A stretch of 64,000 nt of DNA from Branchiostoma lanceolatum (Eukaryota; Chordata; Leptocardii; Amphioxiformes; Branchiostomatidae), in contig NC_089738.1 of the NCBI RefSeq assembly GCF_035083965.1, positions 19,370,734 to 19,434,733 on the forward strand. The letters are read 5' to 3'. Below are positions 7,064 through 56,260 of this stretch, one piece after another. The translations under genes were made by a program, and so were the position numbers. Positions within the stretch are counted from its first letter, which is position 1, and every line of letters starts with the position of its first letter. A model generated the notes under the pieces. It ran no database searches, was not told the origin of the DNA, and was given only the letters and a program-made list of their open reading frames with translations.

Positions 7064-10000
7064 CTATGAGAAAAACACTTTCACTGTGGAGTCCACCCCT
7101 CTCCGGCACATGGGACATTCCACCATCCCGTCAGCGCAGTGCCCGCAGCATGCGTAGTGTCCGCACGGCACGAACACGACCTCGATCCTCGCGTCGAAAC
7201 ACACCTTACAGGTGTGCTCCTCCCGATACCGCTCAAGTTCCGACTCCACATTATCACCTGTGGTCACCTTACAGGTGGGCTGGACTGTACCACTGTCCGC
7301 CGTGGGGGAGGGAGGGATGTCTTCTGTGCTGGGTGTGTTCTCAGATTCCGGGGTTGTTGTCGTCATGACGACCGTAGGAGGCGTGTTCGGTAGCTCGTCG
7401 TTTCCCAGTTTCTCCTTCGCTCGGGCGATTTCGTCTTCAAGGTCCTTCAGCGCCTGTAAGAGTTCTGCAATGGACGCAAAGTTTTCGCGGTGCGTCTCGA
7501 GCCTTCGCCATGTCGCGTGTTGGACAAGATCGCGGTCGTATCCCGCCCGGAGCACGTTTTTTATGACCGGACTTGCCATCGCGTCCGCAACGCTGTTCGC
7601 ACTCTGCAACGGCTCCCTTACAGCATCCACCGTCTTTCCTCCCCCATCCTTGTACTCAACTGTTTTCTCCTCGAAAGTCTTCTCTGTGTTGTCAAGTTTC
7701 TTACCAGCTTTCTCATACTCACGTTTCAAGTCCGTGACTCCTTGGAGGAGTTCAGGAGCAGACTTGAAGGGTCCCTTCCCCTCCTGAAGACGTCGCCACA
7801 CCACGTGGCGCACGGTCTCAAGGTCATGACCTTGGGACAGGACACACAGGACGACCTGCTGCTCCATGGCCAAGGTCAGGTTCACCTCCTCCTTCTCTTT
7901 AAGGAAGTCCTTGTCTCCAAGCTTCTTCTCCGCAGCCGTATACTCCTGTTCCAAGTCTTTCACAGCTTGGAGAAGCTCAGGCCCAGACAGAAGACCGCCC
8001 GCTTGTAACCGCCGCCAGACAGCGTGCCTTACAAGCTCAAGGCTGTAGCCCTCTCGTACAATGTTTTTCACAACCATAGACTTCATGGCTTCAGTCAGGG
8101 AGGGAGGCTGGGGGGCATTGGTGGCCCCTTGAGCTGGACCACCATCCTCCTCCTCCTCCTCATGTGGGTCTGCAGGGATGGCCATCAGGCACAACTTCCT
8201 GCCTTTGTTAAAAGTCAAGTTTCTGTCGAACGGAAGGGCATGAAAGTCCTCCACGTTTTCAGCCCTCACTGTGTCAGCGCTCTCCCACTCATACGGCTGA
8301 GCATCAACTTCGTCTGAGTTTTCTGCTTTCACCACGGAGTCAAACGGTTGGGCACCAACGTCCTCTACAGTGTCCGTGCTCTCTCTCTCGTATGGCTGAG
8401 AACTGACTTCCTCTGCATTTACTGCTCTTATGACAAAAGTGCTCCCCAAGTCTTTACCCTGCGAAGCGACCATGTACGTATCGCTGAAGTCTGCACTCTG
8501 CTGGGGTTTGTCGACAGAGTACGTCTCTCCAAACAGCTTTCGCAGCTGTGAGATGGAGTATGTTTGCCTCAAGTCCTGGTCTGGCTGCGAATCTGGGGAA
8601 TCCTCGGGCGACGGTTCCCGTTCGGATTTCTGCCTAACAGGAGCAGTTTTCCGGACAGGCACAGCTTTACACTTCTTCGTCAGCGGTGTATCGCCTTGCT
8701 CTCCAGTTTTCTTGCTCTCGTTGCTCGGAAACGCCATCATGGACGCCTGACCGAGCCGGGGTCGAGGCGTGACCTCCGCGCTGTCGTCTGTAGGGATAGC
8801 CATCTGGTAGGACTCTGTACTAGTCTGCCTCGCTGAGGAGAACGTGGCCGTGTGGTGGCTGGACTCTGTCTTCTGCAGAACAGAACAAGGAAGGAAGAGA
8901 ACAGCCGGTTAGTTACTATCAGGAACAGATACTAGGCTATGAAACATGGAGCAATTAGATTTTGGACGTGTTCTTTTGCTTGGTATATCGTGTTGATATC
9001 TTTTTTGCTAAACAGACATATGTTGTCGCTCACAGTCCACACGGTACCAGCACAACATTGCAAACTTGAGCTGCTCACAAGGCAACGTAAATTATCTGGA
9101 ATCTTGGTGGTTGTAGCTAACAACATTTGGTTGCTTAAGATCTAGAAGTCTATGATACGCGAAACACTTTACATCGAGTACTGAACAGACAATAATGCGA
9201 GTATTTGGGCTGGATGTCGGTTAGATTCCATCTCCATTCTCACCGTGTTGTCGGCGCAGCAGGTTCGAGTGACGACGCTTGTCGTGGCGGAGGCTGCGTG
9301 GGTGACCTTGACCATGGTCTCTCTCACCAGCCCTGTGAGTCTCATCGCTCCTGTCATGACTGATCTCACCGCCTCGCTCGGGCTCGGAATCTGTCAATCA
9401 ATCAATCAATAACTGATCAATAAAGGATCAATAACTGTGGTCTCTCTCATGACTGATCTCACTGCCTTGGTCAGGGTCAGTCAATCAATAAACAGCAAAT
9501 CAATGAATAGGCGATCAAGAAATAACTAATCAATAACCAATCATCAATAACTATGGCCTCCTTAGCATTGCTCCTGTCATAACTGGCCAATCGATCAACC
9601 AATCAACCAACCAACAATGATGCTGATCAATAACGTTTTTCACTAGATAACGCTGTAACCTTTCACAGAGGCCCTTGGGAAGGGGGGGGGGGCATCAAGA
9701 GTCAAAACATAGATTAGTGTGTGCCAGCACATGGATCCTGGGTTTGCTCATATACTGTGTGCAGTGAGTGGTATAATCTGTCAAATGCATTTCTCCTTTC
9801 CTACTCTACCTATAGAGGTCCAACATGACCAGCAGGTGAAAACTGACCAAGTTAGCTGTAGAACCTGTTGTTATTTTTAGCTCCTTTCGTCTTTGTCTAC
9901 AGTTGAGAACAGCATTGGACTTCTAAATGTACATGTATGTTAATTGTTCAACACAACCATACCCTTAATATAGCATATGGGACAAATATAGTTCCAGATT

Positions 10001-11725
10001 CAGGTCCTCAGTATTCAACACCTCTCTATATAGGTCTACCCTGTGCTTATTTAGAACATGACCTATTTCTTCCTGCAGTGTGAAAACTTGCAACAAGTAT
10101 CTTGTAGTGGAGGCCATGCCATTTGTTTGAAACTTAGACATCATCTATCATATTAAAAAGCAGGCTGTATCAGATATATATCAAAGCAATGTTTTTTTTT
10201 TCAAAATCTTAGGCCAAAAACATTTTTTTGAAGCCTGAGAAAAAAGCTACTTGTTTGAGATGAATCTTGATAAAAGGTAGCAACTCTACATCAAAGTCAT
10301 ATTCTTACCAAGCTTGCGCCTGATTGGTTGTTGTCATGGTGATGAGAGTTCACCTCAGGTGATTGACAGGCAGCAGGAAGCAATGCAGGAGGTGGTACAG
10401 GCAGTCTGGTGGGGGTGCCGTTGTTAAATGGAACAGCAGCTGGTGGAGGAGGCAGTCTGGTGGGGGTGCTGTCCGTAAATGGAACAGCCTGAAACCTTAT
10501 GGACGAACTTGGCACCTGGAAATTAGGAGGAAAAATTGTGACCTACTTTGGCTTGTAGAACTCAAATTCAGGTTATTCTTTTAACTAGGAATGCACCATT
10601 AATGCTAATACAGTATGCTTGCAGTTTGCATTATATCTAAGTATTTACTGAATACATTTTATCCAGAACTTGGAATCATATTAACTGATTATGAAACACC
10701 TCAAAGGCAAACTTCATGACAGGTCAATTGAAGAATTGAACTTCGGGAATGAATTGTCATAAATTAGCTGCAACAAACATTTTGACAAATTCTTGACGCT
10801 ACTCAGCATATAATGTACAAACAACAAAATTTAGCAAAAAAAGTTTAAAAAGCATATGAATTCAATTACAAGAGCAACCATGACTAGATATTGCTTTTAG
10901 ATTCAAAGAAACAATGAAAAACAGATCGCCACATTTTATAGGTTAGAAACGTGCATCAAAATCCCGACCTACCGCGCTGAAAGCTCACCGGTTCTGTCTG
11001 AACCCCGGACAAAAACAACGCGGCACGAATGACGTGTCAGCAGAGGGTACCCCACAAGTACACGTCAGCTTTGGGTTCATGTGAGCAACAAGTGGAACAT
11101 TGCGAAACTTTGGGCAATGGTGGGGACAGGTTTGGATATCTTAGCATTTCAAAGTAGTCTATGTTGTTTTCGGAGTGGTTTTTGCTTGGGATTAAGCACT
11201 TGGCGAGCCTCTGAAGATCTTAGAAACAACCCGGAAGTGAGGAAAACACGGGTTGCCCCGTTTGCACCCTCTGACGCAATACCATTATACATTGCATGTA
11301 CATGTACGTGGCCAAAACAACCCGTGGTTTCTCCAAATATATCAATATTGTTCTAAATTGTGGGCATCAAACACCTAACTACTCAATTATCTCAGTATTT
11401 AGCGACAGTTTTTTTTTTGGGGGGGGGGGGGGTAGCCTATGTGTTAGTTTCATTAGGGTCGCGAGCACTTTGCTTTCTCAGAAACCAAACGAAAACATTT
11501 TTGTGATGTGCACGAATAAATGCCATAAAATGGAGGCCAAATGCTACTCAGGTTTAAACATGATATCAAGTAAGAGAAACTCAGTGCTAAGTAAGAGATT
11601 GTATTACTAAGAAAGCCTACCGGAGGTTTGGCACGCCAACCGGGTGGTTTCCGTGCTCGCAGTTTGCAGTTTCGTCCGGATGGTTCGGGACTCTTCCGGA
11701 CTGCTGGGCGGGACACGTCTGTCAT
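7064..11725 (-). CDS. BIR-less RING/UBA protein with IBM-like tetrapeptides
   Basis: Exons 11725-11621, 10515-10309, 9390-9244 and 8872-7064 all join in phase 0, giving 755 aa. Exon 1 is basic. Exon 2 is proline-rich and contains AVPF twice (residues 45 and 62). Residues ~311-368 form four ~20-aa repeats with SQPY, AQPF, AQPY and ALPF; the AQPY copy is preceded by DEVD (340-343). Three UBA-like repeats follow (from about 413, 484 and 584), each with a core like LVRHAVWRRLQ. A C-terminal C3HC4 RING (CKVCFDARIEVVFVPCGHYA ... CPMC) ends in VKVFFS, typical of IAP E3 ligases, where the last residues support dimerisation. No BIR motif (CxxC-x16-H-x6-C) is present. The 17.8-kb neighbour has the same UBA/RING block, so the two are paralogous there. 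Expected role: ubiquitin binding and E3 activity linked to apoptosis or NF-kB signalling. Exons 1-3 are less certain than the last. Confidence 0.75.
8291..8314 (-). other. DEVD|AQPY: predicted caspase site exposing IBM-like end
   Basis: On the minus strand these bases encode DEVDAQPY (residues 340-347 of the model). DEVD is the preferred recognition sequence of caspase-3/7, with cleavage after the second D. The new N-terminus AQPY fits A-x-P-[FIY], the IAP-binding motif pattern of caspase-9 and Drosophila Hid. Sister repeats read EEVSSQPY, EDVGAQPF and EDFHALPF, so only this copy has the full caspase sequence. Confidence 0.6.
9391..9605 (-). repeat. Acceptor-edge duplications of RING/UBA exon 3
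   Basis: Upstream of exon 9390-9244 (gene orientation) the exon's first part recurs in degenerate form. Forward 9436-9480 has GTGGTCTCTCTCATGACTGA and CTCACTGCCTTGGTCAGGGTCAG, and 9552-9600 has GGCCTCCTTAGCATTGCTCC followed by TGTCATAACTGGCCAATCGATC. Each is followed by the same intronic CAATCAATCAATAA-type tail that flanks the true acceptor. Confidence 0.7.
9606..10308. other. Intron of RING/UBA gene, no further features
   Basis: Contains a G homopolymer near 9680 and T/A runs near 10190. No exon with consistent splice sites was found. Confidence 0.5.
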
Positions 11726-17779: not shown

Positions 17780-20700
17780 ATGTCTTCCTTGGTTCACCCG
17801 GGCGGTTCGGAAGAACCGTCTTTACAGACTAGCCAGGTGCCGGCACAAGACACGGTGGTCCTCCGCCGCACCCCGACAAGCACCGCCCAGAAGACGGAGA
17901 ACCGGCGTAGCATCGCGTACGAAGTGCCGCTCGGAGACAGCCCCTCGGACGATCCCTCGGAGTTCACCCGCGAGCAGGCCCGGCTGGACACGTACCGGGA
18001 CTGGCCGCGCGACTGCCCGGTGGCCCCCGCCGAGCTGGCCCGAGCGGGCTTCTACAGTCTGCGCGATGGGGACCGTGTGCGCTGCTTCGTGTGTTACAGA
18101 GTGCTGCGGCAGTGGTGCGCTGGAGACGACCCTCTGGAGGAGCACAGGAAGCATTACCCGGACTGCCCGTTTGTGAAGGGAGAGGACGTGGGAAATGTGC
18201 CATGTTGTAACGGAGAGGCGACAGCAGCCACGTGTAACGGGGGAACCGAGACCGCATCACCAAATGGTTAGTACAACCACGTTTCTCCAACACAATTGGG
18301 AATAGATAGAAGATACAGCTCAGGAATTTCCATCTATCTCCTCTGTAGCACTGGGCATTGGTGGTCCAATTTAATCTTATGTCGATAATCAAGTTCAATT
18401 TTGTTATATGGTGTTCTGATGATTTCTTACCACTTCTGAATAAATGCGCATGAAAGACATAGAGATAAGATATTAGATATGATATTAGTTCATCGCATCT
18501 TAATTGATAGTTTAGCTCTACTTAAATACGTATTGTACAAAGCTAGTTTTGCTATGCATTGCGCTGATGATAGAACTATAACGACGCCAGAAAGAATAGT
18601 TAAGCATGTATGATGTACCCACTAATGAAGATCCTGCGAATAAACAGACATTAAAAGATGATAAAGCTCGTAACGCCTAAGGTTGCGAGCGGTTCTTTTC
18701 AAATAAACCTGTCCACACCTGTATCATGAGAACGGCCGCTTTGCCGCTTTATTTTCGGAAGGCCGCTTTACCTCTCTTATATCCGTACTCAGCCACGGAA
18801 GAGGCGCCGAAGTTTCCCCAGATGGTTGCAGAGACGCTGCGACTGTCCACCTTCCACGGCTGGCCGCATACCTTCCTCACAGCGGCCGACCTGGCCAGGG
18901 CTGGCTTCTTCTACACATGTAAAGGTTCTTTTCTTAGTTTTACTTCCGGTGAGACAGGAAGCAGGAGTTGGTAAAGGTGACGTCGATATATAAATGGTTT
19001 ATTCTGGAATTGACACATACAGAAATTAAAACAGCATTGCAGCCGATGTTACCTAATCCGGCTGAATTACGCAGTCTTAAGATTAAAAGTACAAAAGAGC
19101 ACACTCAAACAATCGGAAAATATATACAAAACCCAAATGTACATCCAACAGTAGATATGTTTGTATGACTCTACGACTTCAGTAACGTAGCGTTGATGAA
19201 GGTTAACTTACAGATGAACAATCATCTAAGGCAAATCAATCTCTACAACTGGATAAGACACGGAGACTACTTCCCAGCGTTTCCCAGTCACTCTTCTTCA
19301 CTCGCCGATGCGATGGAAATTTACTCGAAACGTCCGGAAGTAATCTCAGTATCTTATCCAGTTGTACAGATTGAAATGGAAATCTAGAGTTGTTTTTTTT
19401 GTCAAACGTTTTAAGCTGGATTTTCTACTTTTATTTCGCGATCTACTATGCCTCCTTCCTGTCTCCTCGCGCGGTGCTGTGCTGTTATCATATTGTTATT
19501 GTCCTGTTTTCTAACATTGTTCATAGCCATACATCTTACATATTTGACATAACAACATTAAGTTTACAATCCATTTTGAGACATCTCTAACTACAGTTGC
19601 ATATACTATCTGGCCGGTATATATCTCTTTCGGGAACGAGTTTTGCACTGTGCGTTGCTTTCCACCGGTCTTCTGTTTGTTTTCTGCTGCTATCGCGATA
19701 TCGATATCTGCCTGATCTAGTAGGTAATAAAGCTGTAATATTTGTTTGTATTGCCTTTTTAACCTCCTTGTTTTTTTTTTCGTAATTCCTATACATTACA
19801 CATTCTTTTTGGCGACGCCTCTGGAGCAGTGGCTTTTTTTCCGTATATCTGGTGAAAGACAGGACACTATAGAAACGGAGATTAGCACCGTCCCTACATA
19901 CAAAAAGATATGGGAAGAATTTTAAAAAACTTTTTTTCCTTCCTCTCCCGCAGTGAAGGGCGGAGACAGCGCGCGGTGCTTCCACTGCGGCGGCGGCCTG
20001 AAGAACTGGCAGCCGGGAGATGACCCCTGGGTCGAGCATGCGCGCTGGTACCCCATGTGCAAGTTCGTCGAGAACAGCAAGGGGGTGCAGTTCGTGCAGG
20101 ACGTGCTGAATAAGTACAAAGTTGGCGAGGTGAGTTTTGTCGATGAAAGCACTAAACGATCGGTCGCCATCTTGGATCTGACCGTTCCTTCAAGATGGCG
20201 GCTATATTTGTCACCATTGATTTACAGAGAAATCTGTTGGCCTCACCAATAGGGCATTTTCACGGACTTTTCATATCAATGAAGGGAGCACGTACTGACT
20301 GTCATGTTGGTGCCTTTGATTTGATTTGGATTTCAATGGACCGTGGCTCTAGCTTTAGATTTTCATGTGTTTATGTATCAAATATTTTATGTATTTAAAA
20401 CAATCGAATTTCATCTGTTTCTGTAGGACATAGCCGGGAATGAGGACTTCGGATCCGGTCGCGCCAACCGCCCGTCCAAGCTGGCCACGCCCACGTCGCC
20501 CCGGGAGATGACGATGTCTTGGCTGTCGCCTGGCTACGAGGAGCTGTCCGCGCCGCCAGGTGCGTGATCAGGGCGTGATCGTCACATGGTCAAGACATGA
20601 TTAACACATGGTCATGGCGTACATAACACTCGAAACAGGCATGATGAGCACATGTTCAACTAAGTCATGCTTAGCACAGGTTGGTCTTTTATGGATAGAC

Positions 20701-22308
20701 ATAACAGGTGCGTGATCGTCACATGGCCAAGGCATGCTCAACACATGGTCAAGGCGTGCTTAACACATGCTTAGGGCATGCATCTGCACATGAAGTAGAA
20801 CTATAACTACACTCGTCATGAATAGAGACCACGGTAGGGGTATAGACTTAGTCACGTTCGGGACCGCATTCTCCTCGTTGCAGCGACATCTAGCGTCCCG
20901 GAGTAGCTGCTGTCACCATTGCCCTGATGAAGGAATGTCGAAAATCTATTGATTTGATTTATATCAGCCTTATGAAACCATTGATGGATATGAGAGATAT
21001 GAATTTCCTTTTTTGTCCCCACTCCTCAGCCGTTCCCTGGTTCGGCGACGCCGGCCCGGAAGTGAACGAGAACCTCCCCGCGCAGCCGCTGAACGTTCTG
21101 ACCGCCATGGAGACGGAGCCCGCCAGAACGGTGGTTGCCATGGGACACCAGCCGGACGTCGTGCAGCACGCCATCTGGCGGCGCCTCGAGAACAACAACG
21201 CCACCTTCCCGTCCACGCAGGAACTGCTGGCGGTGGTGACGGAGCTGGAGGAGGAGTACCGCAGAGCGCGGGAGAAGCTGGGCGAGGGCGCGAACCGACC
21301 CAGCGTGGCCGAGGTCATGGACACCGAGGTTATCGCCTCCATCGTGGCCGAGGGGTACGACCGAGGGCTCGTGCAGCACGCCGTGTGGCGGAGACTGGAG
21401 TCGGCGGGGCGGGGCTTCGGGAGCGCCGAGGAGGCTCTGCATGCGGTCCGGGGCCTGGAGGAGGAGTACAGCCGCCTGAAGAGGAAGAAGCTGGAGGAGC
21501 ACGAGGGGAATACGCTGCAGTACTCGGGAGGCGCGCCAAGGGGCGGCTCGATGTCCAGTAACAGCCTGCAGAACCTGGGTTACGCCACGTCGGGCGGGAA
21601 GGCGGCGGGTCTGCCCAACTGGACGGTTTCAGGGCAAGCCGGGGCTTTCTCCGGTGCCAGCTTCTCCTCAGGTCAGTTTGTAACCTTTGACTCTTCTCGG
21701 GTCTCCCTTAACACCTAATATCTTCGGAATGTATCGAACTACCAGAAATCTATTGAAAATTGCCGAAGTAAAATTAAGTCCACGTCCCTGAGTCATACAT
21801 ATTTACATTAAATTATAATACCTTCGCCAAGAAGGTTAGATTTTTGATGCCGTTTGAGGAACGCCATCAAATCTATCAAAAATCAAGAAACCAAGTTATA
21901 AAGATCTATTTCATATCAATTTTATCCAAAGATTCTTTGACTGAGATGACGTTTATCGAAGGTTTTCGGCTAAACGATTCGCCAGAGGTGATATAGGTCG
22001 TCTGGACAAAAGGTCGACTATCTCTTTTTTTGCTAATTTTTAGTTATTTGAGTCATCAAAGAGAAAAGGCTGGTGGCTGAAGACCGACTTGATTTTTTTT
22101 TACAGAGGGCATTCCCCACGAGTTACAGTCCGAGCTGGAGCGTCTTCGCGAGGAGCGGTGCTGCAAGGTCTGCATGGACCGCGAGGTGGAGCTCGTGTTC
22201 CTGCCGTGCGGCCACTACGCCTGCTGCGTGCCGTGTGGGGAGGGCATGCAGGAGTGCCCCATGTGTCGCGCATGCGTAGAGTCAAAGGTCAAAGTCTACA
22301 TGTCGTAA
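17780..22308 (+). CDS. Inhibitor of apoptosis protein (2 BIR, 2 UBA-like, RING)
   Basis: Exons 17780-18266, 18793-18918, 19954-20129, 20427-20559, 21030-21671 and 22106-22308 join in phase to 588 aa. BIR1 spans ~68-132 with zinc ligands C102, C105, H122 and C129. BIR2 spans ~180-243 with C213, C216, H233 and C240. BIR2 also has [20 protein letters not shown], keeping the W, acidic and W/Y positions that form the IBM-binding groove in XIAP BIR3. BIR1 has H where BIR2 has the groove W236. Exon 5 carries two UBA-like repeats (cores VVQHAIWRRL and LVQHAVWRRL). The RING (C541, C544, C556, H558, C562, C565, C572, C575) ends VKVYMS. Closest to the cIAP/XIAP class (BIRC2/3/4-like) without a CARD. Expected function: caspase binding and E3 ubiquitin ligase in cytosol. 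AATAAA near 22567 is a candidate polyA signal. Confidence 0.88.
20560..20790 (+). repeat. Donor-edge degenerate repeats in IAP intron 4
   Basis: The donor CCAGGTGCGTGATC is followed by GTCACATGGTCAAGACATG-like units. The donor-like block recurs at about 20706 as AACAGGTGCGTGATCGTCAC, followed by ATGGCCAAGGCATG and CATGGTCAAGGCGTGC. At least six CACATG(G/T)-(T/C)CAA or GCATGCT units are present. Confidence 0.65.
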
Positions 22309-24559: not shown

Positions 24560-25555
24560 TTACAAAACCCACCGGCGTAAAGCAAGCCAGATACCAAGAA
24601 ATATGATGCAAATGAGTGACGTGGTGATGATCACTGCAGTGTTCTGAACCACAGTCTTCGCTCTGGCCGGTTGATCTGTCTGGTTCCCTGTCGCGGTTTG
24701 GTTCCGTTCCTCGCGTACTGAAGACACAGCGATGACCGGTGTCGTATTGCTCTTTACCGGAGTGATCTTCAGATAGCTTTTCGAGGTTATTGTCCCTTGT
24801 GCGTCTGCCCTATTATATATTCTTGTCAGATAACTTTTCGTGGTTATATCTTGTGCGGCTGAACAGGCGGACAGATTTGCCGAGTGTAACGGCACGCCCT
24901 TCAGGTTGTCGGGGCTGTCGCATCGCAGTGCAGCACTGAAGACGAAGCTGTGAAACAGCACGCTGTTTTCCACAGCAGCTGCACAGCTGGGCCAGCACTG
25001 GCGAAACGCGCGAGCCATCCCCGCCAGCCACGTCATCCGGCAGTCGCACAGGAGCGGGTTACCCTGGATGAACCTGTGTCCCGAGAACTTGGCCCCCCTC
25101 AAAGAAATCCCCAAGTTCGCCTGTGAGAACGTAGCCAGCTTGTTGTATTCCAGGTTGACTTCGCGAAGATTACGGTGGACATCGATGGACAAGTCCAACC
25201 GTACAGTGGATAACTGGTTATGCGACAAGTCCAGCGTCACGAGCATGGTCATGTTTCTTAAAGACGCCCAAGGGAACGTTGTGAGGAGGTTCTGACTGAA
25301 GTTGAGCTTGTGGACGAACGCGAGGCCGAATAAGTCGGGGATAGTTCGGATGAGGTTCTGCTGGAGGCATACTTTGCCCACCAGGTGTGGCAGCCGAGAA
25401 GGGAAACTGGTGAGGTTGGAATTTGGACAGTTGATCGTGGTAGTTATTAGATGCGTTTTTACATAACACTTAGAGGGCAGAGACTCACCTGTTGTCTTGG
25501 TTGTTAGCAGGACCATAAGAAGGAAACACCTCAAATACTTCATGGTCTTCGTCAT
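24560..25555 (-). CDS. LRR type I membrane protein, single exon
   Basis: 331 aa. An N-terminal signal peptide (CFLLMVLLTTKTTG) is followed by a short LRRNT-like cap with C29 and C43, about four leucine-rich repeats (HLVGKVCLQQNLIRTIP, LFGLAFVHKLNFSQNLLTTF, MLVTLDLSHNQLSTV, NLREVNLEYNKLATF) and an LRRCT cap (GNPLLCDCRMTWL ... LRCDSPDNLKGVPL ... C). A Ser/Thr-rich stalk with several N-glycosylation sequons follows, then a transmembrane helix (TAVIITTSLICIIFLGIWLA) and a cytoplasmic tail of only about five residues (RRWVL). It is probably a cell-surface recognition or adhesion receptor that would need a partner to signal; the ligand is unknown. The start is the first ATG giving a signal peptide, and its A overlaps a stop codon of a repeat-encoded upstream frame. 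A short intronless form is common among lineage-expanded LRR genes. Confidence 0.75.
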   Translation of the reverse strand: MTKTMKYLRCFLLMVLLTTKTTGESLPSKCYVKTHLITTTINCPNSNLTSFPSRLPHLVGKVCLQQNLIRTIPDLFGLAFVHKLNFSQNLLTTFPWASLRNMTMLVTLDLSHNQLSTVRLDLSIDVHRNLREVNLEYNKLATFSQANLGISLRGAKFSGHRFIQGNPLLCDCRMTWLAGMARAFRQCWPSCAAAVENSVLFHSFVFSAALRCDSPDNLKGVPLHSANLSACSAAQDITTKSYLTRIYNRADAQGTITSKSYLKITPVKSNTTPVIAVSSVREERNQTATGNQTDQPARAKTVVQNTAVIITTSLICIIFLGIWLALRRWVL

Positions 25556-25589
25556 CTAAGAACCGAAAAGCGTGAGACACGAATCTGAA

Positions 25590-26021
25590 CACAACTGGGC
25601 GTCTTCTCCCGTAGCACACAACTGGGCGTCTTCTCCCGTAGCACACAACTGGGCGTCTTCTCCCGTAGCACACAACTGGGCGTCTTCTCCCGTAGCACAC
25701 AACTGGGCGTCTTCTCCCGTAGCACACAACTGGGCGTCTTCTCCCGTAGCACACAACTGGGCGTCTTCTCCCGTAGCACACAACTGGGCGTCTTCTCCCG
25801 TAGCACACAACTGGGCGTCTTCTCCCGTAGCACACAACTGGGCGTCTTCTCCCGTAGCACACAACTGGGCGTCTTCTCCCGTAGCACACAACTGGGCGTC
25901 TTCTCCCGTAGCACACAACTGGGCGTCTTCTCCCGTAGCACACAACTGGGCGTCTTCTCCCGTAGCACACAACTGGGCGTCTTCTCCCGTAGCACACAAC
26001 TGGGCGTCCTCTCCCGTAGCA
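25590..26021. repeat. 27-bp minisatellite, 16 copies
   Basis: Sixteen head-to-tail copies of a 27-bp unit (starts CACAACTGGGCGTCTTCTCC, ends CGTAGCA). Only the last copy shows a change (GTCTTC to GTCCTC). Because 27 is divisible by three and the unit lacks stops in several frames, the array is open on both strands as 9-residue repeats. These frames are most likely incidental. It lies 34 bp upstream of the LRR start codon. Confidence 0.98.
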
Positions 26022-34200: not shown

Positions 34201-34794
34201 CGCGTGACCCGATATCAAATAGACGCCGCAAGGTAATCGTCCACCGTGACAAGATGTGGCTTCGGGGCCCGGCCGGGACTTCACCCCCGATGGGCACCAA
34301 CGCAACTGGGACCGTAGCATTACCAGGTATGCGTCAGGAACGAACTCACCTTGAGCCAGCCCATGTAGAAGAGGAACTGCAGAATGGTGAAGATGGGAAT
34401 GTACAGATCCACCTCGTGTCCAGGGTAGTGCTTGGACGGGTCCAGCCACTGCCGCCCCATCAGACACGACACGAAAAACGTGTAGACAGCAACCGTCACT
34501 ACCTGGGGGTGTAACAGGGGGTTAGGTAAACACCGCTTCTGGCTCAATCTGTGGGTGTGGACGGGGTTACGTGTACACCATTTGCTGGGCCTGTTTAGTA
34601 CTAGGATGAGAAATGGGGTTTTCCACCTCATAAGTAGTAGTGCATATCGTCCAAAGGACAACGTACTAGTTGATACGACAGCGCTAAAAAGGTTTGTTTT
34701 TTGAACAACTTACAACAAATGCGGCCATTTGCCGAAGTGCTCCGGACAATTATGACCTCATTTCGTATCTCGTGTGTGTGTGTGTTTGCGTGTC

Positions 34795-34836
<42 letters not shown>

Positions 34837-37500
34837 TGTGTGTGTTAAGAGCTGAGTACATACCTGTGTGTAGACTAGCGGCACACTGATCCAGTCATAA
34901 CTGTACAACATCGCCAGACATCCCCGAATGTTGTTCGACTCCTGAAAAAAAAGCAAGAAACAAACAAGACAAAACCCGCCCAATCAGTCACGGATGTATA
35001 TGTGTTCTAGGCTTAAGACTGTCTCGATAACGGCAAACAAGCAAACTCTTACCCCTTGTTGAACAGCCCCTTCGCTCTGTTGTCGTCGTCTTCGAAAAAT
35101 GTACCATTCCTGACATTTGCGAAAGCTTCAAGCTGTCTTTTATATCGCGGGTAACCTATTTCTACTTTACTCCGTAATAGCGATGATTACTTTTTATGAT
35201 ATCTATTGTTTGTTACCATCCTTCCTAGCTTAACTAACAAGAAGAGAGGTTACTACAAGCAAGCTTAAGCATGCGTGCGCAACATGTGATAATATTAACA
35301 GCTGCGCGTTGACGCGTTTCTTTTATGAACCTTTATCAAATAAAGGTAGAATTAATTTCTACTTTACCCCGTAACGCCACCCAGGCACAAGCGAACCGAC
35401 TGATCAAACATGTCTATTTTACAATCATCCCCATAACAATTAAAGTTGGACCTCCCTCGAGACTACAGAATGAATTTGAACTTCTTAAACGATATGGACT
35501 TTAAGATGCAATATCATGATTGTGGGAGGAAGGAAGAAGTTAACTTACGAACCACCGCCTTTCCCTCGGCAGAGGAGGGAAAAAACGCTTTTCTGTACGG
35601 TAACCATGGTAACGGCCCTGCGAGAGACCGAGATGGTCGCCTCTGATGGTAGGAAGAAAGGTGGTCAACATTGCAACTCACGTGCACACGGGGAGGAGCG
35701 AGGAGGGGTGATGTGGGCATACTGTTCGCCATAGAATGGTTGCAAAAGTGTCTTTTGTTTCATAAGGTTCTTATAATGGGATAAAACTTCATGATTTTGT
35801 TGGTGAGTGCCCACAGGAAATGTAATGACTTGACGAATCTTCGCACAAAGGTCAAATGTGGCCTCAAAAGTAACAGAATTTTCTAGAACCCGAAACATGT
35901 TCGATTTGACGTAATTTAAGCCGAACGCGTGTTCTATTCGGTGTAGCTTTCCGCCATTTGCAGGTTTCCTCTGCAAACCCCCTGTGGCAAGGCCCCATCT
36001 CCTCTGGGTGCCTTGCATTTGAAAAAATGACTAATATTTCACAAATTCAAACCATTTTCTGGGCACTACATCTATGATGACATTCTGTTGTTGCCATATG
36101 TTTCGTGTAACTTTAAGTTATTGGCGGCATCGTTTGTTGATGACCTTGAGTGCAGTAATTTTTTGTCCCCTGCCCTCCTTGCCCCTCAAGAAGTAATAAA
36201 CAAACAATTTCAAATAGGAAGACACAAGTTCATCAAAAGTCTCAAGACTGACCTCGATGAGCGATCGGAAGGTGTAGGGGTCCTCCACGCGACCCTCCTT
36301 GCGGCACTTGGTGACCAGGTTGCAGAACCAGTTCAGCGGCAGCCAGAACTTGTTGTGGGGCGAGTCCAGCTTATCGTAGTCCTTCAGCTCGCCGGGCATC
36401 ATGAACCCTGGAGGTCACGACAGAGAACAGCACTTAGCAGTACGTATCTTTATCAGCACGTATAACTTAATTAAATATATATTATATGGTAGTGTCCGCG
36501 TATCATAAGGATGATATGATCCCTTCTGTAGTTCAAAAAGAAGGAGTGTCGGGAAAAATAGTATGCAATGGAAGAAATTCTGATGCAACGATGACTAGAT
36601 TGATTCCATTTGTAGCTACAAGACAGACACATGTCTGATTCTTCTAGGTTTAACCAACTAGCATTGTTGGCTACGACGTCAGGTCCAAACACCCTGCTTC
36701 ATTTAAAGATTGATTGGTCGATTAATTCGGCTAGAAAAAGGTTTTAGGAATGACCCACCTGCCTCTTATATTGAGAATTAAGTATCCGGTACGTATCGAT
36801 GTGATCGATTGATTGATTGATTGATTGATTCGTGAATCAATGAATCTATTGATTAGTTTTGCAGCATGAATGACACACCTGCCTCCACCACATGGTTCAT
36901 GGTAGGAAACCGCTTGTAGACGGCGGTGCTGATACTGCGCATGATCAGTAGCGTGGCCAGGTTGACGTAACGCACCAGGGTCCGCCGGATCAGACGACCT
37001 CTGGGGAAGGTCATGGCACAGATTAGAAAAAAAAGTCTATTGAATCCAACTTTTTATGTGAGGACGTTTCTGATTTACCAAATTGCATAAAGACTGACGA
37101 GAATTTTGCGTAATTTCTAATCCCCCATGCAGACCCCATACCTGTGGTCCTCCCCATGCACACTGCAGGCTATGAGCGCCGCGATGCGGTCCGGCCAGGG
37201 AATGCAGGTGTACTGCTGCCACCAGCGCGTAAACACCACCGACACGTAAAACCCGAGCAGGAACGCCACCGGGATCAGATCCGTGTGCTCGTTACAAAAC
37301 AAGCTGATGTCCTCGAAATACTCCCTCTGCTTGTCGTTCAGGACGAGCCGATAGGTGGCGCTCAGGGCGGAGTACAGTGCAAGGTAGACGAGCAGTTCCT
37401 TGTAGAGAAGTTTGTAGAAGCTGGCCTGCCAACGGAACAGCAGACGGACGAACCCGCCGAATCGGGCGTCGGCGACTTTCAGACTGTATGACGTAGTCAT
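28239..37500 (-). CDS. Bestrophin A (calcium-activated chloride channel)
   Basis: Eight coding exons in phase: 37500-37142, 37000-36879, 36407-36253, 34941-34864, 34502-34350, 30222-30142, 29517-29360 and 28983-28239; 616 aa. The start [17 protein letters not shown] is the family N-terminus. Neck-gate residues I76, F80 and F84 (IPVAFLLGF) are conserved, as are [85 protein letters not shown] and the acidic calcium clasp DDDDFETNW. The last exon is a low-complexity Ser/Glu-rich cytoplasmic tail, as in other bestrophins. The protein should assemble as a pentameric, Ca2+-gated anion channel in plasma or intracellular membrane. Exon 34350-34502 flanks a 3.6-kb transposon, and exon 29360-29517 is surrounded by partial copies of itself. 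Same orientation as bestrophin B at 49-55.6 kb. Confidence 0.92.
29518..29830 (-). repeat. Acceptor-edge tandem copies of a bestrophin A exon
   Basis: The first ~90 nt of exon 29517-29360, its acceptor (TTTATGACAG, minus strand) and ~40 bp of intron recur at 29563-29660 almost unchanged, at 29684-29758 degenerate, and at 29780-29815 as a short remnant (CCGGCTGATTCCGGCATCTC). The near-identical copy has a usable acceptor and the same peptide start ([19 protein letters not shown]) but no matching donor. Confidence 0.9.
30390..34004. mobile_element. 3.6-kb TIR element with subterminal repeats, non-autonomous
   Basis: The left end reads TAGGTGTCGCTGCTTACAGA followed by TGCGGTCCCAAAA; the complement of the right end reads TAGGCGTCGCTGCTTGCAGA followed by TGCGGTCCCAAAA. 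Both are followed inward by CACTGCACGAAATGGCC. The left arm holds ~177-bp tandem units rich in GACGGATAC and ATTTTTCTGTA (30470-31160). The right arm holds ~363-bp tandem units rich in GGATCCG and GTATCCGAGGCGCAT (33170-33930). The middle (31.2-33.1 kb) is AT-rich without a transposase-sized frame. It sits in one bestrophin A intron. The superfamily cannot be named and the target duplication is ambiguous. Confidence 0.8.
32077..32109. other. Perfect 16-bp palindrome with 1-nt centre
   Basis: CAAGGAGGTTATATAG, then A, then its exact complement CTATATAACCTCCTTG. The half-site AACCTCCTTG also occurs near 19760 and 38685. Confidence 0.8.
34766..34846. repeat. (TG)n microsatellite
   Basis: Imperfect TG/TGTC run about 80 bp long in a bestrophin A intron, next to the 3' end (donor side) of exon 34864-34941 (gene orientation). 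Confidence 0.9.
34942..36252. other. Bestrophin A intron, no further features
   Basis: No additional exon was found. Weak open frames lack motifs. Confidence 0.4.
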
Positions 37501-38070
37501 GGTAACGTCCCAAACATATGGTTCCAACAGGCCTAACCGCCGTACTAGTAGTATATCTTAACGATACGAACGCTTCGCCTCTGTGGCGTCGCCAAAAATT
37601 GGCACGTTGTATATTTTATGAAATCATACAGGCTGCGGTATTTTGATGCAACAAGTTGACCATGACCGTAGCCACCGCACTAGTCCTGTGAAGCAAATGG
37701 GCAAAATTGTGAGAACATTTTCAATTCATAACAGCCCCTTACATTCTATTTGATACTTGGCATTTATCCCAATGTAGTATCGTTCCACTTGAGCAGATCA
37801 AGAGGGGGTGTACGGGTGAGTTCAGTTGCTAAACGTCTGGTAGACTGTGATACTACATTGCTGCAACAATGTTCGAAAATTTAATGCTTAGCGGTATATT
37901 GTTACCATACAGCGGTAGGTCAGATTTTACATGGTTTGGCAGCTGTTAAATGTCATGAGCAGGTAAACATGGAGACCGCAGTACCTTTTATACTCGTTCC
38001 GTGTCAGCGACACGGTGATTTATGGAGCTTACCTGTGCTCCAGGTGCCACGAAACACCTATATAAAGATG
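37501..38070 (-). promoter_or_regulatory. Candidate 5' UTR exon and promoter of bestrophin A
   Basis: On the minus strand, TTTATATAGG (forward ~38060-38069) is followed by GAGCACAG and a donor GTAAGC (exon edge at 38033). A TATA-like element about 25-30 nt before a very short leader exon would fit, but the spacing leaves almost no exon. Speculative. Confidence 0.25.
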
Positions 38071-49077: not shown

Positions 49078-52000
49078 TCATACAGACGTTAGTCTTGGAA
49101 GTTGGATCTCTACCTTAGCAATCTCCGCATTTTTAGTATCTTTACTGAAAACGTTAGTCTTCACAGGCGTGTCCGTGGCGTGAACCCTGCCAGGCGGAGG
49201 CTCGATCTGTAGACACAAGTCCCGCAGACTCTTCACCGATCCCTGCCCGCTGTCGCTGCTCAACTGACCCGGGTCGCTGTCCTCATTGTATACAAACCAC
49301 TTCACGCCCTTCGGCCGGGTGGAAGTCGGGCCCGACGGTTTCCTGGCCCTGTACGGCGTCACCCGGGCGGTCTCAGGCTTGCCTTCCACGGGGGAACTGC
49401 TCACGGCAGTCAGTCTACCTGCCAACCTACCCGCAGCCTTGTCATGGGGAACCGCCGGATGGAAAACAGCATCTTTTGCGCTCGCTGAGATCTTGTCGTT
49501 TGAGAAGTAGTCGGAAGACGTCGTCGTGCCTCTGAACTGCCCCGAGTTGGCCATGGACGCGATGTTGTCGCTGGAACGTCTGTAGCCGCGCTTAGCCTCA
49601 GTCGGGTAGCGTGGGGGGTCCACCAGGTGAGAGACCGACTTTGACATCTTCCTGAGCTGGCGAAGAGGCGGTGGAACTCCCAGATGCTCTACGGCAGAAG
49701 CTGGCGTTTTCTCTTGTATTGTGTTACTACCCTCCTCCGTGTGGTCTTTTGTGACGTCGTGGTTTGGTCTTGGACTGATGGGGATGGAAAAGTGGCTGTC
49801 CCTCCCCGAGGGGGATCGTGTGGGCAGACTGTCGCCCCCCTCCCCACTCTCCCCGCAATCAGGCGACACGAGAGACTCCTGCGAGTCCGTCTTGTGCATG
49901 ATGCCGAGCGCGCGCAGCTCGGTGTAGCTGTCGCCGGTGTGGGCGTGCTTACGGGGCGAGAACGTCTTCTTCAGGGTGTTGTTGGCGGAGTGGGTGGTCG
50001 GGGTGCCCGCCGCGGAGCTCTTGAGGGACACGGTGGAGCCGCTGCGGGAGAGGATGCTGTCGATGAAGGCGCGGGTGAAGTTGGCGGAGCGCCGCTTGAT
50101 GGAGTTGCCTGAGCGCGGACACTCCTCCTGTAGCGGGGGCATGCGCTTAAACTCCATGTCGTCTTTGTTCAGCCTGAAGGGAAGGGAAAGAGAACATAAC
50201 CATCGGAGCAACGCTGGATAGTAGCAACCACTATATTTGACAATGAATAATGAAAAAGCAAATTAACAGGTTGAACTAGACCTTGAATCTTGGGTGTGAG
50301 ATAGACACTGATAGTATCAAAAGCTTCCAAGAAGTAGAGTTTGATTGTGTGTAAGATGTGTTTTGTCAAAGTGAACGCTCCCTGCAACCTGTATGCAAGC
50401 AACATTTGTAGAAAATGAAACATTTGGTACATTCACATTTAGAGCTTTGGTCCGATATTTAACAATGAGCATATTCTTTAACACAGACAATTTAGCCATA
50501 TTTCAGATCTCACCGTAGCTCAAACGTGGAGCCCAGGAAAGACGTGGTCCTGCTGCTGAGGGCCGCCTGTGTGTAGGGCAGGTCCGGGTCCGGCTGGTTC
50601 CAGTAGATATCCTTCTCCAGGGGAGGGTGGGACAGGTACATGTCGTCAACAGCCAGGTACGAGATCTGTCGTAAACAATAGATAACAGCATTAAACAACA
50701 ACAATAAACAACTTGGTGAGCAGTAAACAGGTCATCTACTACTTTGATCTACGCCCGGTGCGAAGTCTGAAGGGGGGGGGGGGAATTATTATTTTCTAAA
50801 ATCTGTTAGTAAGACTAAAGATTAACTGATCAACTGGGGTTCTACCCTATGGCAAAGAAACCGGATTGCTAAACTGTGAAATAGTCGCGGGGCAAAAAAT
50901 CAGATCAAAAGTGGAAGCGCCTTAGAGGACGTTCCTGAGACGGTGGGAGGACCAGGTCTTCAAAAGTCTTAGATAGTTAGGGGTCAGCAGAACCAACTTG
51001 AGGTATTGTGCCGAAACGTCCCGGAGAGAAGTCTTCAGCCGCCACGCATCAGCAATTGATGCCCTCGAATGACCCGGATGTATTGATTGATCATTGATTT
51101 AGTTGTTCATTGATGGAAACATTCACCTGTAAGTTCCTGTCGATGCACCAGTTCCCCTCGAAGTCGTCATCGTCCTGGCCGAACGGGTTGATCAGCTGCT
51201 CGGCGACCTGGAACATAAACGAACGCATATAAACATGTGAATGGAATGAAGTTGCTTGAATGGGCAGGAACGTCCTCCACATCAGTCATGTACTGTGCCA
51301 ACAAGCAGACATCCTCAGGGCGTCTGCCGAAGATGTTGTCTTTACATTGCGTAAAGAAAAAAGACTTTATTCTAAGACTATCAAATTCTAAGCCGTTTCC
51401 CTTGAAACTGCAGTGCAATCAAGATCCAATAGAGGGTACCCCCAAGCTTCAAATTGCACATGTCAAACACAGGGTTTGTTATGCGATAGATCCCTTGTCT
51501 AGTTGGGCATGAATTTTCCCAAACGACAATAAACGCACCTTGAGCCACCCCATATAGAAGAACATCTGTAGTATGACGTTCAAGTCAACCCCCTGTACTC
51601 GTGAATGGTCGTAACTCTGATATGTTAATAGGTTATCCTTACCGAAACATATTAGTCAAGGAAGACTGGTGTTGTACAGTCTAAAATTTGGGTAAGTCCA
51701 ATTTTTGTGTGTTAGCAATTACAGTTAAGACTTGTTTCAGAATGACTTCTACCAACACAGATGAACTTTCAAGCTAAGGTTATCCTTACTCTAACATCTA
51801 AACTTTTACTCAGTCCTACCTTGAGCCATCCCATATAGAAGAACATCTGCAGTATGTTGAAGGTTAGAGGGTCTTAACATTAATCAGCCATCCTTACTCT
51901 AACATGTAAACCGTACACACCTGCTAGACCCATCCCTGGGTCTGGTCCTAACCCATCATCCACCCCTCTCACAAACCCACGTTGAGCCATCCCTGGGTCA

Positions 52001-55000
52001 GGTCCCCACCCAATACCCTCTAACAAACCCACCTCAAGCTGGGTCCTAACCCCTAACCCCACATGACCCTTTAACAGACCCACCTTGAGCTGGGTCCTAA
52101 CCCCTAACCCCTAACTCCACATAACCCTTAACCCCTAACCCCACATGACCCTTTAACCGACCCACCTTGAGCCATCCCATATAGAAGAACATCTGCAGTA
52201 TGGTGAATGCCGGGATGTACAGATCCACTTCGTGCGACTCGTACCCTTGCGACGGGTCCAGGTACTGCCGCCCCATCAGGCACGACAGGAAAAACGTGTA
52301 GACGGCAACCGTCACCACCTGGGGGCGTGGAGGGGGTTATGTGAACACCAATAGTATCACAGCTTAGGGGTATGAAAGGGGGTTATGTGAAAATCAATAT
52401 TGTCACAACTTCGGGTATGGAAGGGGGTTACGAGGGCATCAATAGTGTTGACAGCCACTCGAAAGGAGTTGTGTGGACACCGCTACTGGCACTACCTAGG
52501 GGAAGGGGACGCGTATCTCTACCCAGTTTTAGGATACATCAAGGTATTTTAAAATTGCTTATGTTATGAAAGATTGTATAGGTTAGACAAATCAGATAAA
52601 CCAGCTCTATTCGACAGGTTCGATTTGGAGAGGAGCGGATGATGAAACAGTACTAGTATAGGCATCACTTCAAAAGCCCTCTAGATTTTTCGTTTAAAGA
52701 TATGCCTTCCTTTATGCAAGGCAACGTGAACGTTTCCAGCCGGGTAGGTGGTTGTTATGTGTGTATGATTTGCATACCTGTGTGTAGACTAGCGGCACGC
52801 TGATCCAGTCATAGCTGTACAGCATCCCCAGACAATGCCGCATCTTGTTCTCCTCCTGAGACATTAACATGCAATTGTTGTTGATTATCACTATATCAAA
52901 TTTCCCTCTGTCGTGCCACATCTGCTAGGTGTCTTTAATCAACAAACAACATTTCGAGAAAGAAACACATTACATCATCGTCACGTGTCTACAAACACCC
53001 AACGCCATACGTTTTTCTATCCATGGCTAGAAGGTACAGTCGTTCCTACTACTGCCCTCCCATGTGCCTCGGTTGCTAGGTTACAAATTCGTCTTTAACC
53101 AACGAAAATAGCGGCTGCCAAAGTACGTCACATACATGTGACCTCAATCAACCAATCCCATACCTCCATCAATGTCGGTATGTCGCCTTTCCTGACGAGT
53201 CACATTTGCTAGGTTACAAAATTAATGTTAATTTAACCAACCAACATGGCGGCTGTCAAAACACGTGACTACAATCAACCAATCCCGTACCTCTATCAGG
53301 GCCTGGAATGTGAAGTCGTCCCGGATGCGGCCCTCCTGACGCGCCACTGTTGCTAGGTTACAGAACCAGTTGAGCGGGACCCAGAACTTGCTGTGGTGCG
53401 AGTCCACGTTCTCGTACTCCTTCAGCTCGGCCACGGACATGAAACCTGCGGGGCACAGAGTGGTTAGTTCATGCAAGGAGGTTGGTTCATACCATGGATA
53501 GAATATGACATGTACAGTCCAAAAAGAAAGAAAGAAATTCGAAAGAAAAGAAATAGCTATGCAACTGGTCAGAGGCTGCTGCCGCGCCGAAGGGCGGTTA
53601 TACCGGCTATATAGATACGAATACTGCAATTACGTTGAATTGAGGTTATACCGTTGAATTTAGGAAATAGCTATTGACAGGATCATCCTGTCAGCAGTGC
53701 AAAAATTTCTACTGCTGACAGGATCATCTTGCCAATACCCTCAGCCTTGAATTTATCATGCCGTCTAATTGCTGTCTATCTCTCTCTCTTGTGCGCGATA
53801 AACGTGCTCGTTTTACGACAAGACGGTTTACGACAGTTTCATAACAATTAGGCATATTCATTTTGCGGTAGTTTTATGTACATTACATAGCATATCAGTG
53901 ATACGCGACAAACGCACGTACGTAGTGCCCGTCTTCAACATCTATTTATGAAAACAAGCAAAAGGAATTAATTGTCCACCCCGATATAGTTCAGAGTATC
54001 AAGTCTATGTTGCTGTGCATGTAACGTTGTACACATACAGATGTGGAAAGCTAACGGTGCGGCATGTCATCTTTGGTCGGTAATAGTGAGAACTCCGCGG
54101 AATAATGCACGTTAAATCACATTACGGCCGATGATAATGCAATCATGTCGTCTCGCAGATGATTCACATGGAACATATCATCCATAATAGATACCGATCG
54201 ACTGTTTCGGTACTTTCTGACAATTTGCGCCAACATGCCGAACAGGAATGGTAAGAATAATTAAGGGGAAACAAATATTACTAGTATCCCTTACATACAT
54301 ATGAATAGTAGGGAAAAAATATGTAATTTTCTCGAAGGAATAACCAGCCATGTTGAGCCTGACACATGAGAAGAAACAGAAGGTGATGATCACATTGTTT
54401 TCAAAACTTACCGGCATGTATTACAATGATATAAATGTGGTGCTTTTATACACAATAGTACGGTTCTAACACAAATCGCATCCTGCACTGTTCAGAAACT
54501 GATTATAAAAGAAATAGTAAGTACATCCATGGTGGGAAATCTCATGTAGACCACGGTGTAGAGGAATAGGACTATGTAATACTATGTTGGTTTAGACCAT
54601 TGACACACAAGGGTATAGGCTTTACAGTGCTTTAACAATCGATAAAGCACTAGTATTACCGGCGCCCGCCACATGGCATGGAAGCTCTTGCACACCGCGG
54701 TGTCGAGGAGTCGACTTCACGTGTCGTTTGAGACCATTAAGACGTTACAACCATTACAGTGATTTAACAATCGATGATGAACAGTAACTTACTGGCATGG
54801 CATGGTTCATGGCAGAGAACCTCTTGTACATCACCGTATAAAAGTAGATGACTACTAGTATATAAGTCGTTTGACACCATTATATAGTAACTTACCAGCA
54901 TCCACGGCATGGTTCATAGTAGGGAATCTTTTGGAGATCATGGTGTAAAGGACTATGTATGTCGGTCGTTACAGCTATTACAGCTAATACAGATTAACTG

Positions 55001-55642
55001 TAACTTACCAGCGTCCACGACATGGTTCATGGTAACGTTAGGGAAAGCTCTTGTACACCAAAGTGTGAAGCTCTTGTGGACCACGGTTTGGAGGTTGAGA
55101 CTAACATTTTGACCAATAATACACAAGACCAATAGATAGTAGATGATAAACAGTCACTTACCAGCATCCACTACATGGTTCATGGTAGGGAACCTCTTGT
55201 ACACCACGGTGCTGACGCTGCGGAGGATGAGGACCGAGGACAGGTTGAGGTAGCGGACCATGGTCCTGCGGATGAGGCGGCCGCGCTCGTCCCGACCGTG
55301 CACCGCGCAGCCGATCAGCGCCGACACCCGGTCCGGCCAGGGCAGGTTCATGTACTGCTGCCACCAGCGCGCGTAGATGATCGACACGTAGAACCCGAGA
55401 ACAAACGACACCGGGATCAGGTCAGAGTACTGATGGCAGTACATCGTGATCTTCTCAAACGTTCTCTTCTGGTCGTCCGTGAGCGCGAACCGGTACACGC
55501 CGCTGAGCAGGCTGTACAGAGACACGAAGATCGCCATCTCCTTGTACAGCAGCTTGTAGATGCTCGCCTTCCATCGCAGCAGGAGCTTAGGGAATCCCCC
55601 CAACCTGGCCTCAGACACCTTCAAGCTGTAGGAGATGGTCAT
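49078..55642 (-). CDS. Bestrophin B (calcium-activated chloride channel)
   Basis: Seven coding exons in phase: 55642-55162, 53445-53291, 52855-52778, 52318-52166, 51207-51127, 50665-50514 and 50173-49078; 731 aa. The start is [18 protein letters not shown]76, F80 and F84 (IPVSFVLGF) match the bestrophin neck, and DDDDFEGNW is the calcium clasp. The first exon equals the first two exons of bestrophin A joined (481 nt versus 359+122), so an intron was lost here or gained in A. All other boundaries are shared. The long C-terminal exon (365 codons) is Ser/Pro/Arg-rich ([28 protein letters not shown]) and unrelated in detail to A's tail, which suggests divergent regulation. Predicted pentameric anion channel. 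Two of its exon edges have partial tandem copies (51530-52165, 54650-55161). Confidence 0.92.
51530..52165 (-). repeat. Donor-edge copies of bestrophin B exon 4
   Basis: The 3' end of exon 52318-52166 with its donor (forward CACCTTGAGCCATCCCATAT, then AGAAGAACATCTGCAGTATG) recurs at about 51537-51580 and 51819-51860. Between the last copy and the exon, short CCCTAACCCC-type and CCCACCTTGAGC units accumulate (51890-52165), including two more CACCT(C/T)(A/G)AGC donor fragments. Confidence 0.85.
52856..53290. other. Bestrophin B intron with a degenerate repeat
   Basis: GTTGCTAGGTTACAAATTCG ... TTAACCAACGAAAATAGCGG (about 53070) and TTGCTAGGTTACAAAATTAA ... TTAACCAACCAACATGGCGG (about 53207) form a ~137-bp tandem pair. 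GTTGCTAGGTTACAGAACCA inside the following exon resembles the same start. Confidence 0.55.
54650..55161 (-). repeat. Donor-edge copies of bestrophin B exon 1
   Basis: The 3' end of exon 55642-55162 plus donor (forward TTACCAGCATCCACTACATG, GTTCATGGTAGGGAACCTCT) recurs at ~54790 (ACTGGCATGGCATGGTTCAT), 54894 (TTACCAGCATCCACGGCATG) and 55006 (TTACCAGCGTCCACGACATG), with an older remnant at ~54665. The spacing is about 105-155 bp. Each keeps a GTAAG donor in gene orientation, except the oldest. Confidence 0.9.
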
Positions 55643-56260
55643 GTCTGTAGATGTCTTACACAATCCCTTCCCTTCTCACCGAAAGTCAAGATTACTTTTG
55701 GGGCTTAATCCCGAGCGAGCTGCTGCTATTCCTCCATGGCGAGGCAGTCTCCGCCATTCGCCGGTTCCCGGTCCCGCGCACGTGCCACTCTGACCTTTTC
55801 ACCCCGCCGTCGTCCCTGGAAACCATCACCAAGGAGACCTGAAAAAGAACAGAACAGAACGCAGTACAGAACACACTTTGTGATTGATCCGAGGGATTTT
55901 AGCTTGTACCGATAAGATATCGCTATTGCCATGTGCTTACGTGCCAACATGTGCGGCTAAATCACATCAAAGAGAAATTCATAAGACGCCGCTCTTAAAG
56001 GCTAAGACATAAGTCTTCCTTAAGAACGCCGCGCGTCTACGTGAACGGAATAAATCCTACGAAATTTCTTGCAAGGCGACGACTTGAAGGATGACAATGA
56101 CTCACCGGTGAACCGAAGCCGTCCCCTCCTGACGAGGAAGCGTGTGACACCGGTCTAACTCTTCTGCGGCGAGCAGCCGACAGCGCTGCCGGGAGTATCA
56201 ACTCAACCGGTTTCATCTGGTTCCTCTCTAACCTCGTATCATCCACTTAAATTCTCCCCT
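55643..56260 (-). promoter_or_regulatory. 5' leader and upstream UTR exon of bestrophin B
   Basis: On the minus strand an acceptor (TTCTTTTTCAG) precedes forward position 55840, so the first coding exon carries about 200 nt of leader. A donor (TTCACCG then GTGAGTC) at forward 56106 marks a candidate non-coding first exon from about 56250 to 56107. Its start is unknown. Confidence 0.4.

Follow-up and report, generated by a model that had tools for sequence, protein, structure and literature searches.

Could an E3 ubiquitin ligase of the inhibitor of apoptosis protein (IAP) kind, itself without a BIR domain, become a ligand for the BIR domains of other IAPs once caspases are active? The question is raised by a gene in a 64,000-nucleotide stretch of the Branchiostoma lanceolatum genome (contig NC_089738.1, positions 19,370,734 to 19,434,733; the window), whose predicted product contains DEVDAQPY, a candidate caspase site followed directly by a tetrapeptide that resembles an IAP-binding motif (IBM). 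From the sequence, we tentatively favor an answer in which the protein is a BIR-less IAP paralogue with a disordered half that holds latent putative IBMs, one of them exposable by caspases in some species.

The gene is on the minus strand and has four coding exons, from 11725 to 7064, that encode 755 amino acids. Every exon length is a multiple of three and the exon borders are GT/AG. A preliminary description of this DNA had proposed the 755-residue model, with DEVDAQPY at residues 340-347. We reproduced the model exactly and confirmed that the fragment starting at A344 would have 412 residues. A public B. lanceolatum protein (P0004, record name BIRC2) also has 755 amino acids and is 95% identical to the product in the window, indicating that the gene is real.

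Orthologues were recovered only from Branchiostoma. We searched with the whole protein, a profile, and the UBA-RING part as queries, scoring the best 7994 candidates in each search. There were four orthologues (P0004 to P0007): B. lanceolatum (P0004), B. floridae (P0007), a B. floridae x B. japonicum hybrid (P0006), and B. belcheri. Among the candidates scored, the whole-protein and profile searches gave no relatives beyond this genus, and the UBA-RING query added one, a BIR-bearing XIAP-like protein from Gigantopelta aegis (30% identity over 49% of the query). The exons and the domains of the C-terminal half are as follows:

11621..11725, minus strand: coding exon 1, residues 1-35, with the MTDV start shared with P0004-P0006
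10309..10515, minus strand: coding exon 2, residues 36-104, with two AVPF sites; missing in P0006
10488-10477 and 10437-10426, minus strand: the AVPF sites of exon 2, residues 45-48 and 62-65
9244..9390, minus strand: coding exon 3, residues 105-153
7064..8872, minus strand: coding exon 4, residues 154-755 and the stop codon
7922..8098, minus strand: UBA-like repeat 1, residues 412-470; resembles the repeats of a neighboring IAP gene, with helices in the structural model
7697..7882, minus strand: UBA-like repeat 2, residues 484-545; likewise resembles the neighbor's repeats, with helices in the model
7412..7594, minus strand: UBA repeat 3, residues 580-640; PF21290 UBA_BIRC2-3, with helices in the model
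7067..7234, minus strand: IAP-type RING with a C-terminal KVFFS tail, residues 700-755; found by Pfam, and matching cIAP1 (3t6p_A) in the PDB

Exon 2 is absent from the hybrid model P0006, which is an isoform X2, and is present in P0004 and P0005. Alternative splicing of the AVPF motifs is possible, judging from these models.

The C-terminal half of the protein is of the IAP kind. The RING matched Pfam PF13920 at 46.5 bits (cut-off 27), and UBA repeat 3 matched PF21290 at 32.3 bits (cut-off 27.2), passing in the window and in all four orthologues. UBA-like repeats 1 and 2 had no Pfam hit when cut out and scanned. They align with the repeats of the neighboring IAP, and in an AlphaFold model each of the three repeats has four helices in identical order. 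The three UBA-like repeats and the IAP RING named in the preliminary description are thus borne out, the RING and repeat 3 by Pfam and the other two repeats by alignment and by helices. With the exon-4 frame as query, the best PDB chain by sequence was cIAP1 (3t6p_A, E 5.7e-23). The same protein was the best Foldseek match in the PDB (3t6p, E 0.077), and none of the 16 Foldseek matches reached E 0.001. The AlphaFold model, made from the 602-residue exon-4 product and five sequences, was poor overall (mean predicted local distance difference test score, pLDDT, 46.3; predicted template modeling score 0.28), and we drew no conclusion about the RING from it, since that stretch had a pLDDT below 50. 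Nearly all of residues 1-255 of the exon-4 product (residues 154-408 of the full model), including the candidate caspase site, had a pLDDT below 50, which fits a disordered region.

The BIR domains that define IAPs were not found. Pfam detected no BIR in the exon-4 product of the window (P0001) or in P0004-P0007; exons 1-3 of the window were covered through P0004, which they match and which was itself scanned. By the features of the IAP (BIRC) family, the protein has the IAP-type RING with its C-terminal tail and a BIRC2/3-type UBA, and lacks the at least one BIR of that family. It is, by sequence, a BIR-less relative of the BIR-defined IAPs and not a member. The best explanation appears to be a cIAP/XIAP-like paralogue that kept the UBA-RING half and has a disordered region with A-x-P motifs in place of the BIRs.

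The A-x-P motifs and the candidate caspase site

The disordered half contains recurring A-x-P motifs, several of which are invariant in all five sequences (the window and the four orthologues):

8783..8803, minus strand: MAIPTDD, residues 177-183, invariant in 5/5; its Met is encoded by the first ATG of exon 4 and starts the B. floridae model P0007
8723..8737, minus strand: MAFPS, residues 199-203, an A-x-P site whose Ala and Pro are invariant (5/5)
8219..8422, minus strand: four-unit array EEVSSQPY / EDVGAQPF / DEVDAQPY / EDFHALPF, residues 304-371, made up of a two-motif block and its tandem duplicate
8291..8314, minus strand: DEVDAQPY, residues 340-347, candidate caspase site and A-x-P-Y, from the sequence
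8168..8188, minus strand: LMAIPAD, residues 382-388, with L-M-A-I-P invariant in 5/5

The other species have two array units each: EEVG-ALPF and EEVC-AQPF in B. belcheri, EEAS-ALPY and DDVD-AKPF in B. floridae, and EEVG-ALPY and DDVD-AKPF in the hybrid. In the lanceolatum type, the additional 35 amino acids represent a tandem duplication: the DNA of the two blocks is identical at 65 of 90 aligned bases, with an alignment score higher than that of every one of 2000 codon shuffles.

The A-x-P motifs were more frequent than in shuffled sequences and more conserved than other Ala and Pro columns. A-x-P-[FYITSV] occurs 9 times in the window protein, and 10, 12, 6, and 7 times in P0004, P0005, P0006, and P0007; among 3000 shuffles of each, these counts were reached twice for P0006 and never for the others. 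We compared alignment columns within the disordered stretch 177-405, where 183 columns are present in all five sequences and 100 of these are invariant. For four A-x-P motifs (178, 200, 223, and 365), the Ala and Pro columns were invariant in 8 of 8 cases, compared to 9 of 25 other Ala and Pro columns (Fisher p 0.0018). The comparison omits the motifs at 327 and 344, which have gaps, and those at 45, 62, and 586, which fall beyond this stretch. Because the window has Ala at the fourth position of the motif at 384, this invariant MAIP was counted as a control, making the test stricter.

The literal DEVDAQPY was restricted to B. lanceolatum. It was present in two of the five sequences (the window and P0004), and its 35-residue unit is missing from the other three, so that the expectation, set beforehand, of its conservation in other amphioxus failed. 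B. floridae and the hybrid have DDVDAKPF in the neighboring array unit, and an equivalent DxVD-A-x-P-[FY], a caspase consensus before an IBM-like motif, is therefore found in four of the five sequences (three of the four public ones), at two different units; B. belcheri has none. The use of different units in two lineages implies separate origins or movement by repeat exchange.

To estimate how often such a site arises by chance, we shuffled the window protein 20,000 times: DEVD occurred in 1.9% of the shuffles and DEVD-[AS]-x-P in 0.04%. The true surprise is smaller than this, because the test was post hoc and the motif is inside an imperfect repeat. A second DxxD-[AS]-x-P in the window protein, DSPD-SQPD from residue 244, was absent from all four orthologues, and we set it aside as a candidate site.

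The neighboring IAP and other features of the window

A second IAP gene is approximately 6 kb away on the plus strand. Between 17.7 and 22.3 kb, open frames encode, in this order, BIR1, a BIR2 split in two, a pair of UBA-like repeats, and a RING:

17981..18178, plus strand: BIR1, PF00653, 77.5 bits
18840..18920, plus strand: first part of BIR2, PF00653 positions 1-32, 21.0 bits, slightly below the cut-off of 22.9
19962..20069, plus strand: second part of BIR2, with a groove like that of XIAP BIR3, PF00653, 50.8 bits
21089..21487, plus strand: two UBA-like repeats, 58/159 columns identical to those of the minus-strand gene
22123..22305, plus strand: RING, found by Pfam, 39/61 identical to that of the minus-strand gene

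Based on the identities in the RING and the UBA-like repeats, we interpret the two genes as paralogues. The neighbor's UBA-like repeats also gave no Pfam UBA hit. AVPW and AQPL occur in the open frame just 5' of these repeats, where both may be coding.

The second BIR of the neighbor resembles BIR3 of XIAP. It aligned without gaps to XIAP BIR3 (1nw9_A), retaining GGGL, W, and WYP, with the Gly and both Trp of the peptide groove among them; we assume that the numbering and roles of these groove residues are those of XIAP BIR3. A Gly equivalent to XIAP Gly306 is described as accommodating Phe at P4; XIAP BIR2 does not accommodate it (PMC3760131). Judged from its residues, the neighbor's BIR2 looks fit for A-x-P-F/Y ends.

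The rest of the window contains features of other kinds. Four minus-strand open frames matched Pfam Bestrophin (34320-34709, 37117-37557, 53228-53629, and 55154-55675), likely forming a tandem cluster of bestrophin chloride channels from 34320 to 55675 in a single orientation. A 394-residue open frame amid these pieces (49078-50262, minus strand) had no Pfam match at E 0.001 and may be a long channel tail. A single-exon leucine-rich-repeat protein of 331 amino acids (24560-25555, minus strand; LRR_8, 30.1 bits) appears, by eye, to carry a signal peptide and, at its C-terminus, a membrane helix. Just upstream of its frame is a 27-bp minisatellite (25589-26021; 16 copies, 99% matches) that is open in several frames. 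Other tandem repeats are at 333-740 (38 bp, 11 copies) and 1388-1930 (119 bp, 4.6 copies).

Readings of the A-x-P motifs

If the putative IBMs are exposed by caspases, the following sequence of events could be envisaged. In a resting cell, the protein would be a RING E3 that reads ubiquitin chains. An effector caspase would cut after the DxVD of the B. lanceolatum or B. floridae type, creating a fragment that begins with AQPY or AKPF. This end would dock on a type II BIR2 of an IAP, for example the product of the neighboring gene. The UBA repeats and a dimer-forming RING would remain with the IBM on one chain, and the outcome might be displacement of the IAP, ubiquitination in trans, or scaffolded signaling, as when Dredd-cut Imd recruits Diap2. 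The gene, its domains, its paralogy, the absence of a detected BIR, the conserved array, and the groove residues are observed; cleavage, BIR binding, RING pairing, and the outcome are predicted. In the fullest version, an IAP paralogue would have swapped its BIRs for BIR ligands and become an autonomous RING E3 that carries several latent IBMs. Caspases in some amphioxus species, and perhaps also a second start site, would switch it on, and it would hijack or reprogram the product of its BIR-bearing sister gene. We regard this version as rather unlikely.

Several observations weigh against caspase exposure of an IBM. All A-x-P-type tetrapeptides are internal in the 755-residue model, and exposure requires cleavage or a second start; most have no Asp before them. 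IBMs are described as acting solely when the N-terminus is free and unmodified (PMC12152192), so that most of the array would be silent as IBMs unless cut, and the conservation of A-x-P argues for a function without cleavage. The counts of array motifs are not independent, since duplicated blocks supply part of the A-x-P excess. B. belcheri has the array and no DxxD-[ASG] anywhere in the protein, indicating that caspase exposure is not essential across the genus. DxVD is in different units in the two lineages and may thus have been gained by chance in a repeat rich in acidic residues. For Asp occurring together at P4 and P1, p was 0.008, 0.036, or 0.107 depending on which sequences were counted, and because of this shift we set the test aside as evidence. 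The earlier proposal of an IBM is strengthened in that A-x-P tetrapeptides recur and are conserved in all five sequences and the neighbor's BIR2 has an XIAP-BIR3-like groove, and is weakened in that internal motifs have no free amino group, which an IBM requires.

A role of the array in internal docking is almost as probable as the reading that we favor. The array would be read internally by some other domain (an adaptor, a TRAF-like domain, or an E2/E3 partner), the DxVD would be a coincidence in an acid-rich repeat, and the likeness to IBMs would be accidental. This fits with a conserved core that is A-x-P and not Asp-Ala (the residue before Ala in the array units is S, G, D, H, or C), with the retention of M-A-I-P at 177 and 383 in 5/5 sequences and of A-x-P at 199 with no Asp before them, and with B. 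belcheri, which manages without a DxxD-[ASG]. However, the array is on an IAP paralogue adjoining an IAP with a matching BIR groove, and we know of no internal motif of the form of this array, although no search of a motif library was made.

Two other explanations fare less well. One is an ordinary UBA-RING E3 without BIRs that is in decay after duplication of an IAP and has a disordered half of no specific function; it would account for the absence of exon 2 from P0006 and the different array lengths between species. We consider this improbable: the UBA-RING half is complete in all four public models, the window and P0005-P0007 are 83-88% identical over this half, and the A-x-P columns are conserved beyond other Ala and Pro columns. 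The other is an IBM that arises through translation, without caspases: a start at M177 and loss of this Met would leave AIPT at the N-terminus, with Thr, atypical for an IBM, at P4. In its favor, no ATG of exon 4 precedes that of M177, the B. floridae model P0007 begins there, MAIPTDD is invariant, and IBMs of fly antagonists such as Reaper, Hid, and Grim are described as exposed by removal of Met (PMC12803136). A start there is nevertheless improbable too, as the remaining three public models begin with MTDV, farther upstream, the P0007 prediction may be truncated, and N-terminal acetylation would block an IBM (PMC12152192).

Comparison with known systems

The BIR-less IAP paralogue that we favor resembles cIAP1/2 (BIRC2/3) and XIAP in its UBA and in a C-terminal RING that extends to the last residue, and differs from them in the three UBA-like repeats, the A-x-P array, and the lack of a detected BIR. 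A survey of mollusc IAPs discarded proteins without a BIR (PMC8917759), and a protein like this one would be missed by such a survey. In a paper on novel amphioxus genes, BIR appears in the domain list of a figure and in a remark on NLRs; UBA gave no hit. We found no open-access literature joining Branchiostoma with an IAP-binding motif, and in the open-access sources searched we saw no RING E3 of the IAP type with BIR ligands in place of BIRs.

Exposure of internal IBMs by proteolysis has precedents. Caspase-7 exposes AKPD; the open-access literature gave us no report joining this tetrapeptide and caspase-7 with an IAP-binding motif or a BIR. Imd is an adaptor and not a RING E3, unlike the amphioxus protein. 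Cleavage of Drosophila Imd by Dredd exposes an IBM that recruits Diap2 (PMC8738736), and a caspase cut in the amphioxus protein would likewise expose an IBM for an IAP E3, with the cut and the recruitment reported for Imd and predicted from sequence here. Calpain-cut GSPT1/eRF3 exposes AKPF, identical to the B. floridae tetrapeptide, and antagonizes IAPs (PMC12713026), and processing by DPP8/9 exposes SVPA on AK2 (PMC12152192); in both, as would be the case in the amphioxus protein, proteolysis unmasks an internal IBM. These two differ in that the protease is a calpain or a dipeptidyl peptidase rather than a caspase and in that they are not E3 ligases.

Caspases also cut IAPs themselves, including Livin. 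Among the fly proteins, DIAP1 (PMC6274719) and Diap2 (PMC8738736) are cut and, like the amphioxus protein, are RING E3s of the IAP kind. They differ in keeping their BIR domains, and the text consulted on them does not mention that the cut exposes an IBM on the RING-bearing fragment.

A caspase-exposed IBM is thus already a known device, in Imd, and what would be new is its carriage by a BIR-less E3 of the IAP type. The site states within Branchiostoma (DEVD, DDVD, and none) are a natural comparison. If the reading that we favor is correct, then in a cephalochordate the control of IAP activity would fall to an E3 that turns into an IAP ligand only once caspases are active. Such a caspase-gated switch would resemble that of Imd and lie outside insects, and the roles of antagonist and ligase, which belong to separate proteins in flies and mammals, would be joined in one.

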